From: Bacillota bacterium
Lineage (GTDB): Bacteria; Bacillota; Clostridia; Lachnospirales; Bianqueaceae
Reading direction: 5' to 3'
DNA length: 64,000 nucleotides
NCBI GenBank assembly: GCA_017441925.1
Contig: JAFRUE010000007.1
Span: forward strand, 434,001 to 498,000
Positions 59,676 through 62,332 of the stretch are shown here, in pieces (the stretch's first letter is position 1; each line of letters begins with the position of its first letter). The notes beneath the pieces were generated by a model. It did no database searches, had not been told where the DNA came from, and saw only the letters and a program-made list of their open reading frames with translations. Made by a program: the position numbers and the translations under genes.

Positions 59676-59747
59676 AGCGCGAGACGGGATTCGGACCCGC
59701 GACCCTCGCCTTGGCAAGGCGATGCTCTACCCCTGAGCCACTCGCGC
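59676..59747 (-). tRNA. tRNA-Gly (GCC)
   Basis: Complete cloverleaf of 72 bases without CCA. Acceptor GCGCGAG pairs CTCGCGC, discriminator U. The anticodon stem-loop has GCC within TTGCCAA. The T-loop reads TCCGAAT instead of TTCGAAT, so position 55, normally pseudouridine, is C. Confidence 0.92.
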
Positions 59748-59751
59748 ATAG

Positions 59752-59825
59752 TAGCGGAGGACAGATTTGAACTGCCGACACCGCGGGTATGAACCGCGTG
59801 CTCTCGCCAGCTGAGCTACTCCGCC
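59752..59825 (-). tRNA. tRNA-Met (CAT), elongator-like
   Basis: 74 bases without CCA. Acceptor GGCGGAG pairs CTCCGCT with a G-U at the end. The anticodon arm is CGCGG TTCATAC CCGCG. It lacks the C1-A72 mismatch and the three G-C pairs of initiators and resembles the B. subtilis elongator tRNA-Met. Confidence 0.9.
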
Positions 59826-59856
59826 AAACAATAGATCTGATCTGTTCTCAGGATCA

Positions 59857-59872
59857 CTCGCCAGGAGAACAG

Positions 59873-59873
<1 letters not shown>
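59857..59873 (-). other. Hairpin in the spacer between two tRNAs (59836-59873)
   Basis: Between tRNA-Asp and tRNA-Met the spacer forms an 8-bp perfect stem (CTGTTCTC with GAGAACAG) around a 15-base loop. It has no T-run, so it is more likely an RNase processing or spacing element than a terminator. Confidence 0.45.
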
Positions 59874-59946
<73 letters not shown>

Positions 59947-59947
59947 A

Positions 59948-60021
59948 TGGGCCCTCAGGGACTCGAACCCGGGACCGACCGGTTATGAGCCGGCTGCTCT
60001 GACCAACTGAGCTAAAGGCCC
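59948..60021 (-). tRNA. tRNA with CAT anticodon, probably tRNA-Ile2 (lysidine-type)
   Basis: 74 bases without CCA. Acceptor GGGCCTT pairs AGGGCCC (one G-U). The anticodon loop is CTCATAA. The body (GCTCAGTTGGTCAGAGCAG, then CCGGCTCATAACCGG) resembles Ile2 tRNAs more than the elongator tRNA-Met in the same cluster, so C34 is probably changed to lysidine by TilS. One T-stem pair (C-U) is mismatched. Met identity cannot be excluded. Confidence 0.8.
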
Positions 60022-60027
60022 CTAGAA

Positions 60028-60099
60028 TGACCCCCAGGAGAATCGAACTCCTGTTTTCGCCGTGAGAGGGCGACGTCTTAGCCGCTTGACCAGGGGGCC
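60028..60099 (-). tRNA. tRNA-Glu (CTC)
   Basis: 72 bases without CCA. Acceptor GGCCCCC pairs GGGGGTC, discriminator A. The anticodon loop contains CTC (CCTCTCACG region), the rarer Glu isoacceptor; the usual TTC form is not in the window. First gene of the tRNA operon. Confidence 0.92.
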
Positions 60100-60222: not shown

Positions 60223-60411
60223 TCAGCTGTTCTCTCCTGTCTGCTCTTCCTGCTGTGCCTGCTGCTCTTTTTTCAACTGAGCCTTGCGGTCAATAGCGGA
60301 AATTGCATAGATCACCAGTGCGATCGCTCCGAGCACGAAGAAAATGCCAAGCATGCCTGTGCCCATGATTTCAAGTGATTTCAAAACAGCTGCCTGATCC
60401 AGTAAAATCAT
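60223..60411 (-). CDS. Sodium-pump decarboxylase gamma subunit (OadG-like)
   Basis: A 62-residue single-span membrane protein: helix at about 18-40 (GTGMLGIFFVLGAIALVIYAI), then a charged Lys/Glu/Gln tail (RKAQLKKEQQAQQEEQTGEN). This is the layout of OadG/MmdC small subunits, which hold the membrane complex together. It follows the beta subunit by 34 bases. Sequence alone is weak evidence at this size; the partner gene makes the call. A 7-bp hairpin without T-run (60210-60230) overlaps its stop. Confidence 0.8.
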   Translation of the reverse strand: MILLDQAAVLKSLEIMGTGMLGIFFVLGAIALVIYAISAIDRKAQLKKEQQAQQEEQTGENS

Positions 60412-60445: not shown

Positions 60446-61579
60446 TCAGTGCATAAAGAACTGGAGGATCATACCGCCGGCGACAACAGACGCGATCTGT
60501 CCGGAGACATTCGCGCTGACCGCTTCCATCAGCAGATGGTTGGTCTTGTCTTCCGAAACCGCAAGCTTCTCGACAACGCGTGCCGACATCGGAAACGCGG
60601 AGATACCGGCTGCGCCGATCATCGGGTTGATTTTCTTCTTGCTGAAGAGATTCAGCAGCTTGGCAAACATTACGCCGCCGATCGTATCGAACACGAACGC
60701 CGCAAGGCCGATGACCATGATCAGAAGCGTCTGCCAGGTCACGAACTGCGCTGCTTTCATATTATACGCGACGGTGATTCCGAGAAGCAACGTTATGATA
60801 TTCGTAAATTCATGCTGCGCAGTCTCGGACAGGTTGTCCAGTACTTTGCACTCCCTCAGGAGGTTGCCGAACATCAGGGATCCGACCAGGCCGATCGACA
60901 TCGGCGCGACCATACCCGCGATCAGCGTAACGACGATCGGAAAAAGGATCCTGGTCGTACGGCTGACAGGTCTTGCCGCGACATGTTCCATATGGATGCC
61001 CCGCTCTTTCTTCGTCGTGATCATCTTGATGACCGCCGGCTGGATGATCGGGACAAGCGCCATATACGAATAGGCGACAACTGCGATCGGTCCCATGTAG
61101 TTTGAATTCAGCACCTGGGATACCAGAATGGATGTCGGTCCGTCCGCCGCGCCGATAATTCCGATGGACGCCGCGTCCTTCAGATCGAATCCGAGCAGCG
61201 TCGCAACAGAGAGCGCCGCAAAAATACCGAACTGCGCTGCCGCGCCAAACAGGAACATCTTGGGATTCGAGATGAGCGGTCCGAAATCGATCATCGCTCC
61301 GATACCGATGAACAACAGGATCGGCATAGCCTCCGCCGCTCCGATACCGACAGTGTAGAGCCACTCAATGATACCGCCAGCCTCGATATTACCGGCCATC
61401 ATCTGGTTCAGCACGCCGGAATTCGGCAGGTTGACCAAAATCGCGCCGAATCCCATCGGCAGGAGAAGCGCCGGTTCCAGCTGTTTCTTGATCGCCAGCC
61501 AGATCAGCAGTCCTCCGACACAGTACATTACGATCTGCTGCCAGGTCACACTAAGGAATCCTTCAATCAGAAATGCCAT
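60446..61579 (-). CDS. Na+-translocating decarboxylase beta subunit (OadB/GcdB/MmdB family)
   Basis: Membrane carboxyl-biotin decarboxylase that exports Na+ while releasing CO2; about 377 residues with roughly ten helices. Family motifs include GAILVNLPNSG near the N-terminus, FIGIGAMIDFGPLISNPKMF, GIIGAADGPTSILVS (conserved Asp) and NPMIGAAGISAFPMSARVV. I chose ATG at 61577-61579 since GGAGG is five bases upstream. No alpha (carboxyltransferase) or biotin carrier gene is adjacent, so the substrate (oxaloacetate, methylmalonyl-CoA, glutaconyl-CoA) is open. Preceded by a riboswitch-like leader. Confidence 0.93.
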   Translation of the reverse strand: MAFLIEGFLSVTWQQIVMYCVGGLLIWLAIKKQLEPALLLPMGFGAILVNLPNSGVLNQMMAGNIEAGGIIEWLYTVGIGAAEAMPILLFIGIGAMIDFGPLISNPKMFLFGAAAQFGIFAALSVATLLGFDLKDAASIGIIGAADGPTSILVSQVLNSNYMGPIAVVAYSYMALVPIIQPAVIKMITTKKERGIHMEHVAARPVSRTTRILFPIVVTLIAGMVAPMSIGLVGSLMFGNLLRECKVLDNLSETAQHEFTNIITLLLGITVAYNMKAAQFVTWQTLLIMVIGLAAFVFDTIGGVMFAKLLNLFSKKKINPMIGAAGISAFPMSARVVEKLAVSEDKTNHLLMEAVSANVSGQIASVVAGGMILQFFMH

Positions 61580-61614: not shown

Positions 61615-61648
61615 TAAAAAAGGCCCGTATCGCGTGCTACGATACAGG
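61615..61648 (-). terminator. Intrinsic terminator in the oadB-type leader
   Basis: Minus strand 9-bp stem CCTGTATCG / CGATACGGG (61640-61648 with 61624-61632, one G-U), a 7-base loop, then CCTTTTTTAT. It is located about 35 bases before the beta-subunit start, inside the transcript, so it is an attenuator. Its 5' arm is also part of the aptamer closing stem. Confidence 0.85.
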
Positions 61649-61735
61649 TCTTGTCTTTTCATGTTAAACCAGAAGCGATAAACGCGACGGTTGTTGATTT
61701 AACAGCATTTGCATGCTGACTACTCCCCTGAAATC
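61641..61735 (-). promoter_or_regulatory. Riboswitch-like leader, yybP-ykoY (Mn2+)-type candidate, upstream of the Na+ pump
   Basis: The minus-strand RNA contains GGGGAGUAGUC (61718-61728) and AGACAAGACCUGUAUC (61641-61656). These resemble the two conserved strands of the yybP-ykoY aptamer (GGGGAGUAGC and GCAAGACCUUU). They can close stem P1 (GAUUUCAGG with CCUGUAUC, with small mismatches) and the inner GUC/GAC pairing. Between them are hairpin AGCAU-GCAA-AUGCU and stem GUUAAA/UUUAAC. P1 formation would use the terminator's 5' arm, so ligand binding should switch genes ON. A Na+-sensing RNA is an alternative, given the target. Family membership is from memory of the consensus. Confidence 0.6.
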
Positions 61736-61740
61736 AATTT

Positions 61741-61770
61741 ATTATATCTCATTTCAAGCGGAAAAGTCAA
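61741..61770 (-). promoter_or_regulatory. Promoter of the Na+-pump leader
   Basis: Minus strand TTGACT (61765-61770), 18 bases, TATAAT (61741-61746). Transcription would start near 61734, right at the 5' strand of the aptamer P1 stem. Confidence 0.8.
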
Positions 61771-61786: not shown

Positions 61787-62332
61787 TCAATCATGTTTTT
61801 GCAAAATCGATGCAAGAGGGCCTCGCAGGCGCAGATACAGGATCTCGGCAAGCAGGATCTTGACTGCATCTCCGGGAAGGAACGGAAGCACACAGTAACG
61901 CAGACTGTATCCGACTGTATTTCCTGTCAGGATGATGAACCAGATTGTACCGAACAGATAGCATACGAGCACGGCAATGAACATCGCCAGGAACAGCAGG
62001 ACTCTGCGCTTCCGGAAATGCCGGACCGCGATCCCGTCCAACACTGCTGTAAATAGATAACCGATCGCGTATCCGCCCGTCATTCCGAAAAGGACTCCGA
62101 GTCCGCCTTTGAATCCGGCCATGACCGGAATGCCGGCAGCCGCAAGCAGCAGATAGATCAGAACGCTCACTCCTCCGTATACCGGGCCTAAGAGTAAACC
62201 GGAAAGATGGACCGCGAACAATGCGAGATTGATCGGTATGAACGGCAGATCGATCTTAAGCTGTGAACACACGGCGATCAGTGCCGTGAATAATGCCGTC
62301 AGGATCATGTAAACAGTGGTTTTTCTCTTCAT
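61787..62332 (-). CDS. bioY: Biotin transporter BioY (ECF S-component)
   Basis: A 181-residue membrane protein with about six helices. Typical BioY features: LPFIPINLALFAVHLSGLLLG, the region GIPVMAGFKGGLGVLFGMTGGYAIGYL, and the C-terminal VLPFLPGDAVKILLAEIL. It imports biotin alone or with a shared ECF module, which is not encoded here. Biotin is the cofactor of the Na+-pumping decarboxylase whose beta subunit is the next gene. ATG follows AAGGAG. Promoter at 62367-62395, with a palindrome downstream of it. Confidence 0.94.
   Translation of the reverse strand: MKRKTTVYMILTALFTALIAVCSQLKIDLPFIPINLALFAVHLSGLLLGPVYGGVSVLIYLLLAAAGIPVMAGFKGGLGVLFGMTGGYAIGYLFTAVLDGIAVRHFRKRRVLLFLAMFIAVLVCYLFGTIWFIILTGNTVGYSLRYCVLPFLPGDAVKILLAEILYLRLRGPLASILQKHD

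Follow-up and report, generated by a model that had tools for sequence, protein, structure and literature searches.

A divergent yybP-ykoY-type leader, probably a manganese-responsive ON switch, precedes a stand-alone OadB gene

Which ion is sensed by a riboswitch-like leader that stands before a gene of the sodium-pumping decarboxylase type? The question arises from a leader in the window, i.e., the whole 64,000-nucleotide stretch of DNA analysed here. The first-pass annotation had described it as an ON switch with yybP-ykoY-like conserved strands before a Na+-pumping decarboxylase, with Na+ or a related ion as a conceivable ligand. The present study suggests that this leader is probably a divergent member of the yybP-ykoY (Mn2+) lineage, acting as a transcriptional ON switch, with Mn2+ as the most likely ligand, before a stand-alone OadB that probably moves cations.

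Encoded on the minus strand (61736-61616, ~120 nt), the leader ends in an intrinsic terminator (Table 1). A near-consensus promoter is located directly 5′ of it, and the transcription start was placed just before P1. The two yybP-ykoY-like strands were indeed present on the minus strand, GGGGAGUAG at 61728-61720 and ACAAGACC at 61654-61647. Folded in isolation, the aptamer has a minimum free energy (MFE) structure (-21.1 kcal/mol) equal to the consensus derived by hand from relatives, namely P1, P2, P3, and a short helix flanking L1. Once the 3′ end is included, the terminator takes its place in the MFE fold, using CCUGUAUCG; this terminator has 10 bp and a 5-nt loop (-13.7 kcal/mol), followed by 6 U. 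Since it starts at exactly the CC that closes P1, aptamer and terminator are mutually exclusive. Both the sharing of the 3′ strand of the closing stem and the ON-switch logic proposed at first pass are thus borne out by the folds with and without the 3′ end. The window leader has P1, P2, and P3 but no P4, and hence lacks the four-way junction P1-P4. The leader at locus L008 has all four helices, and spirochaete members have P4 without P2; P2 and P4 are optional helices, variable across the lineage.

Table 1. Features of the leader and of the controlled unit (window coordinates).
Feature	Position	Strand	Basis or remark
Promoter -35, TTGACT	61765..61770	-	11/12 consensus including -10, spacer 18; consensus only
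Promoter -10, TATAAT	61741..61746	-	consensus match
P1 5′ strand (GAU-UU-CAGG)	61727..61735	-	partner 61648-61641; covaries in relatives
GGGGAGUAG, P1 end and L1 5′ strand, yybP-ykoY hallmark	61720..61728	-	
P2 hairpin (AGCAU GCAA AUGCU)	61704..61717	-	MFE fold
P3.1 5′ strand, GUUAAAUCA	61695..61703	-	partner 61671-61663
L3 bulge, ACAACC	61689..61694	-	alignment A1
P3.2 hairpin	61672..61688	-	weak in window, stronger in relatives
P3.1 3′ strand, UGGUUUAAC	61663..61671	-	covariation and MFE fold
GACAAGACC, L1 3′ strand and start of P1 3′ strand	61647..61655	-	alignment A1
P1 3′ strand, CCUGUAUC, common to terminator 5′ arm (the switch)	61641..61648	-	
Intrinsic terminator	61616..61648	-	stem 61648-61624, U6 tail 61621-61616
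SD of oadB, GGAGG	61589-61585	-	between terminator and ATG
Stand-alone oadB	60446..61579	-	PF03977 3.7e-150; TIGR01109; 377 aa from ATG 61579-61577
OAD gamma-like ORF, downstream of oadB	60223..60411	-	62 aa; PF04277 1.8e-07

A strict two-part sequence pattern matched once in the 2.7-Mb genome, with no match for the reversed control, and was present in 4 of 19 genomes of the family. A stricter version with GACAAGACC matched 6 of the order's 392 genomes (reversed control, 0). When any linker was allowed, a scan of 84,980 species genomes gave 25 stretches of the same leader class, which is distributed over Clostridia, Halanaerobiales, Synergistaceae, and many Spirochaetota. As the scan used CAACARC, the conservation of this motif in the resulting alignment (A1) is partly by construction, and protein-centred (OadB) searches were run to avoid this bias. 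The invariance of GGGGAGUAG in A1 likewise follows from how the scan was built; in the covariance-model matches this strand reads [AG]GGGAGUA[AG].

The alignment of homologous leaders, proposed with the first-pass annotation, revealed clear covariation. Among 26 distinct relatives, standard pairs occupied 89.5% of the pair cells, and two-sided changes were observed in 14 of 21 pairs. The two-sided cells numbered 104, compared with 39.9 in shuffles and ≤31 in slid controls; pairing fell to ≤46.2% when the partner was slid by one to three columns. Two-sided changes affected 3 of the 4 counted pairs of P2 and 6 of the 9 pairs of P3.1, the latter being 96.6% paired. A set of 95 members collected by covariance model, in an alignment that leans to structure, was 91.1% paired, with 453 two-sided cells against 149 in shuffles. 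Furthermore, in 25 of the 26 relatives the P1 3′ strand also served as the 5′ arm of a terminator, beginning at the P1 CC. Chance overlap with a terminator was ruled out by a random-position control (79/1040, 7.6%). When P1 strands were swapped between members, a terminator was still found in 77 of 227 cases, and thus the CCU start itself contributes.

No riboswitch was detected by Rfam in the window, nor in the leader when scanned with permissive filters, and the leader gave no match to the yybP-ykoY model RF00080 even at E≤10, let alone at its gathering cut-off of 45 bits. Leaders of the same OadB clade came much closer to this model. L008 scored 43.8 bits (E 2.4e-10) and L108 33.2 bits (E 3.8e-7) in whole-genome searches, both below the cut-off, and further OadB leaders scored 41.8, 39.8, 35.0, and 29.8 bits (E 2.8e-6 or better, per-genome search). 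The cut-off was reached in none of the 105 genomes searched, which were chosen for matches to our covariance model R1 (see below) or for OadB genes, pointing to a gap in Rfam. The covariance-model check suggested at first pass therefore gave a divided answer: the window leader itself was matched neither by RF00080 nor by Na+-I (DUF1646) at E≤10 with permissive filters, whereas its sister leaders matched RF00080 below the cut-off.

R1 was built from the 26 members of A1, and 86 of 293 genomes of the class contained matches to it. The genes behind these matches encode MntP (PF02659), TerC (PF03741), GDT1/UPF0016 (PF01169), CaCA exchangers, and P-type ATPases, all of which are known clientele of the Mn2+ riboswitch. 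The Lactococcus lactis switch, for instance, precedes the P-type ATPase gene yoaB (PMC9190785). A1 aligns L008 with the window leader and thereby gives homology to RF00080 via intermediates. Because A1 contains L008 and R1 retrieves leaders of MntP, TerC, and GDT1 genes, the window leader falls into the yybP-ykoY lineage through intermediates. It also carries the L1 signature GGGGAGUAG...CAAGACC and an N-C-A in L3 with the invariant A (A41/A48).

Some other genes of the lineage speak against Mn2+, as they are not obvious Mn2+ exporters, namely a CitMHS/ArsB-like permease, a carboxyl transferase, and flotillin. Unexpectedly, a flotillin/SPFH gene (PF01145, PF15975) follows a second yybP-ykoY-like leader of the window's genome (L001:1529-1628; G000:C8:213974-214073, minus; R1 28.9 bits, RF00080 17 bits), the 3′ strand of which is terminator-like. 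At L044:1501-1593 (minus), an R1-type leader with L3 ACAGCC stands before a carboxyl transferase gene (PF01039), the catalytic-subunit type of biotin-dependent Na+ pumps or carboxylases. In the spirochaete loci L015, L016, L024, and L028, a CitMHS/ArsB-type permease (PF03600) takes the place of OadB behind this type of leader, and in the Clostridia loci L086, L087, L089, L092, and L097, R1-type leaders precede genes of LolD/MacB-type ABC-transporter ATPases. L043 holds a tandem pair of R1-type leaders (1501-1599 and 1645-1739) before a P-type ATPase gene.

The gene behind the window leader belongs to the OadB family; it encodes a beta subunit standing alone, accompanied by a small gamma-like ORF, and is not part of a Na+-pumping decarboxylase operon as first annotated. 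OadA (PF02436) and a biotin carrier are absent at the window locus, which thus does not encode a full decarboxylase complex. A complete operon (carboxyltransferase, gamma, biotin carrier, OadB, and OadA) lies elsewhere in the genome without a riboswitch (L150, G000:C4:651836-656500); its OadB is the second one of the genome, with OadA and biotin carrier at G000:C4:651836-654378. The protein-centred search found 24 OadB genes in the 19 family genomes. The leader precedes OadB in all seven stand-alone loci (no OadA, no biotin carrier neighbour) and in none of the 17 canonical loci (OadA and biotin carrier adjoining), with p = 2.9e-6 if loci were independent, but the loci are related. Another 44 loci of this OadB clade came from the order, none with OadA or biotin-carrier genes in the stretch compared; 20 of them had an R1 match, leaving about half of the order's stand-alone genes without the leader. 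In phylogeny, a 100/100 branch has the riboswitch-linked OadB proteins of both Bacillota and Spirochaetota together on one side, the canonical sample being from one family only. Directly upstream of the riboswitch-oadB unit lies bioY (biotin transporter; window 61787-62332, minus), an arrangement shared with sister genome L006, even though no biotin subunit accompanies the stand-alone OadB. On its downstream side, the oadB unit is followed by a cluster of five tRNA genes (window 59676-60099, minus).

We compared the protein with Salmonella OadB (PDB 6iva; PMC7274780), counting window residues from TTG 61591. The stand-alone clade keeps E40, D203, Y229, N373, G377, S382, R389, and N412 wherever the sequence is complete, and the Na+ ligands D203, S382, and N412 correspond to D150, S331, and N361 in the window protein. 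R304 and N311 are reported to be essential for decarboxylation in Salmonella OAD (PMC7274780); the window protein instead has N253 and H260, and the clade has N, S, T, K, or R at position 304 and H, N, K, or G at position 311. N311 is invariant in 15 canonical OadB proteins. R304 is replaced by Gln in four canonical OadB too, and hence R304 variation alone is weak evidence. In addition, a membrane Glu (E87, window position) occurs in 22 of 22 stand-alone OadB, versus Gly/Asp in canonical OadB. Judged by these residues, the protein under the switch resembles an OadB that has left biotin chemistry but would still be a cation transporter. We predict that it transports cations in a metal-responsive manner and possibly exports Mn2+. 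Against Mn2+ transport, all tested Na+ ligands are intact and, to our knowledge, no OadB protein is known to carry Mn2+.

As to the ligand, L3 of solved aptamers reads UCA41AUUC (L. lactis) and ACA48UACU (Xanthomonas oryzae) (PMC6754395); this A binds Mn2+ via its N7, and Mn2+-specific docking is lost when the A is mutated (PMC6754395, PMC9190785). The window L3, ACAACC, keeps the discriminating A as its third base (A61692), the counterpart of A41/A48 by alignment A1, and the X. oryzae Mn2+ aptamer likewise has an ACA-type L3 (L3 sequences from PMC6754395). Speaking against Mn2+, the window subgroup departs from the solved Mn2+ loops beyond this A: its L3 is ACARCC and mostly 6 nt long, whereas theirs have 7 nt. 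Across the class, L3 is mostly ACAUAC in MntP leaders and of all kinds in P-type ATPase leaders, and TerC leaders have ACAACC, ACAAUC, or ACAUAC, four of them starting with ACAACC as in the window. Within the window's family and order, the L3 before OadB orthologues reads ACAACC, ACAGCA, ACAUCC, ACAUUC, or CGUCAGUAC, the last, a textbook L3, being found before orthologues L131, L200, L215-L217, and L219. The idea that ACARCC marks a new ligand class was rejected, as TerC leaders share ACARCC and orthologous OadB leaders have CGUCAGUAC or ACAUCC. Since textbook Mn2+ loops precede the same gene in close relatives and TerC leaders have the window loop, Mn2+ is the most economical ligand. From the leader sequences, Mn2+ rather than Na+ is the likely ligand.

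Alternatively, an ACARCC subgroup with the yybP-ykoY fold could have changed its ligand to Na+, or to a cation linked to Na+ cycling, and switch on a Na+ transporter. Such a subgroup, which would be the first yybP-ykoY fold to sense a monovalent ion and control a Na+ transporter, would suit an OadB that keeps all Na+ ligands and the other targets of the pattern-selected set (Na+/Ca2+ exchanger-type CaCA and CitMHS/ArsB-type permeases). Oxaloacetate decarboxylase genes are known targets of Na+-I riboswitches (PMC9337991), and L3 after the discriminating A does differ from that of MntP leaders (ACAUAC) of the same class. We nevertheless consider a Na+ ligand unlikely, as four TerC leaders have the identical L3 ACAACC, orthologous OadB genes are preceded by L3 of the textbook CGUCAGUAC and ACAUCC types, and the discriminating A and L1 are unchanged. 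Moreover, yybP-ykoY sites bind a dehydrated divalent metal via several phosphates and are unlikely to suit Na+ (PMC6754395, PMC9190785). The Na+-I model had no match at gathering score in 40 OadB loci. The Na+ suggestion of the first-pass annotation thus gives way to a family that grades into textbook Mn2+ riboswitches.

That another divalent ion (Mg2+, Ca2+, Cd2+, or Fe2+) is the physiological ligand appears quite unlikely. Lineage targets include P-type ATPases and CaCA exchangers able to carry Ca2+, and variation in P3.2/L3 could relax selectivity, but the MntP, TerC, and GDT1 targets point to Mn2+, and in solved relatives the retained A confers, through its N7, a preference for Mn2+ (PMC6754395). 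It is barely credible that the element merely terminates bioY read-through or acts as a constitutive attenuator, its resemblance to yybP-ykoY being due to chance. The terminator is strong and placed between bioY and oadB; however, there is a separate promoter between bioY and the leader, the covariation of the aptamer across phyla contradicts such a view, and the leader tracks the gene (7/7 versus 0/17 loci).

The sequence evidence covers the promoter, the covarying aptamer, the terminator overlap, and the gene association. For the Mn2+ switch that we favor, these elements suggest the following mechanism. At low ligand levels, strand 61648-61639 would pair into the terminator, and transcription would stop before oadB. 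With ligand, L1 and L3 would dock around the metal, presumably Mn2+, and stabilize P1. P1 would then hold the shared strand so that the terminator cannot form, allowing transcription of oadB and the small gamma-like ORF. Cation movement under metal stress is the most likely role of the stand-alone OadB. It might export Mn2+ itself, coupled to Na+ or H+, or it might sustain the Na+ gradient needed by Na+/metal exchangers. No such leader was found at the genome's own MntP gene; one may therefore speculate that the stand-alone OadB is the switch-controlled Mn2+-response gene of this organism.

The literature searched, covering few subscription journals and thus leaving priority uncertain, held no yybP-ykoY switch before OadB, and as far as this search goes the stand-alone OadB is a target family new to the Mn2+ riboswitch lineage. 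For stand-alone OadB genes, annotated in databases as subunits of a Na+-pumping decarboxylase, the association offers a concrete function that can be tested. Its occurrence before lone OadB genes in many gut Clostridia and spirochaetes suggests a role of the orphan subunit in metal-ion balance. Should stand-alone OadB export Mn2+ or support metal efflux, many annotations in these organisms would be misleading.

The switch resembles the Na+-I riboswitch in being an ON switch, which in some species also stands before oxaloacetate decarboxylase genes (PMC9337991), but Na+-I has a two-hairpin architecture with conserved bases at the P1 bottom and in the P2 loop, which the window leader does not match. 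The controlled protein shares its family (TIGR01109) and the Na+ ligand residues with the OadB of PDB 6iva, from which it differs in forming a separate clade, in having no OadA or biotin carrier, in not conserving R304 and N311, and in the gain of E87. With the yybP-ykoY riboswitch, the window leader shares L1 (GGGGAGUAG/CAAGACC), the P1-P2-P3 layout, the discriminating A of L3, and a P1 strand common to the terminator (ON); target families are held in common, and sister leaders match it with E down to 2.4e-10. In contrast to that riboswitch, the window form lacks P4, has a short P3.2 and an ACARCC L3, scores below Rfam detection, and has a stand-alone OadB as its target.
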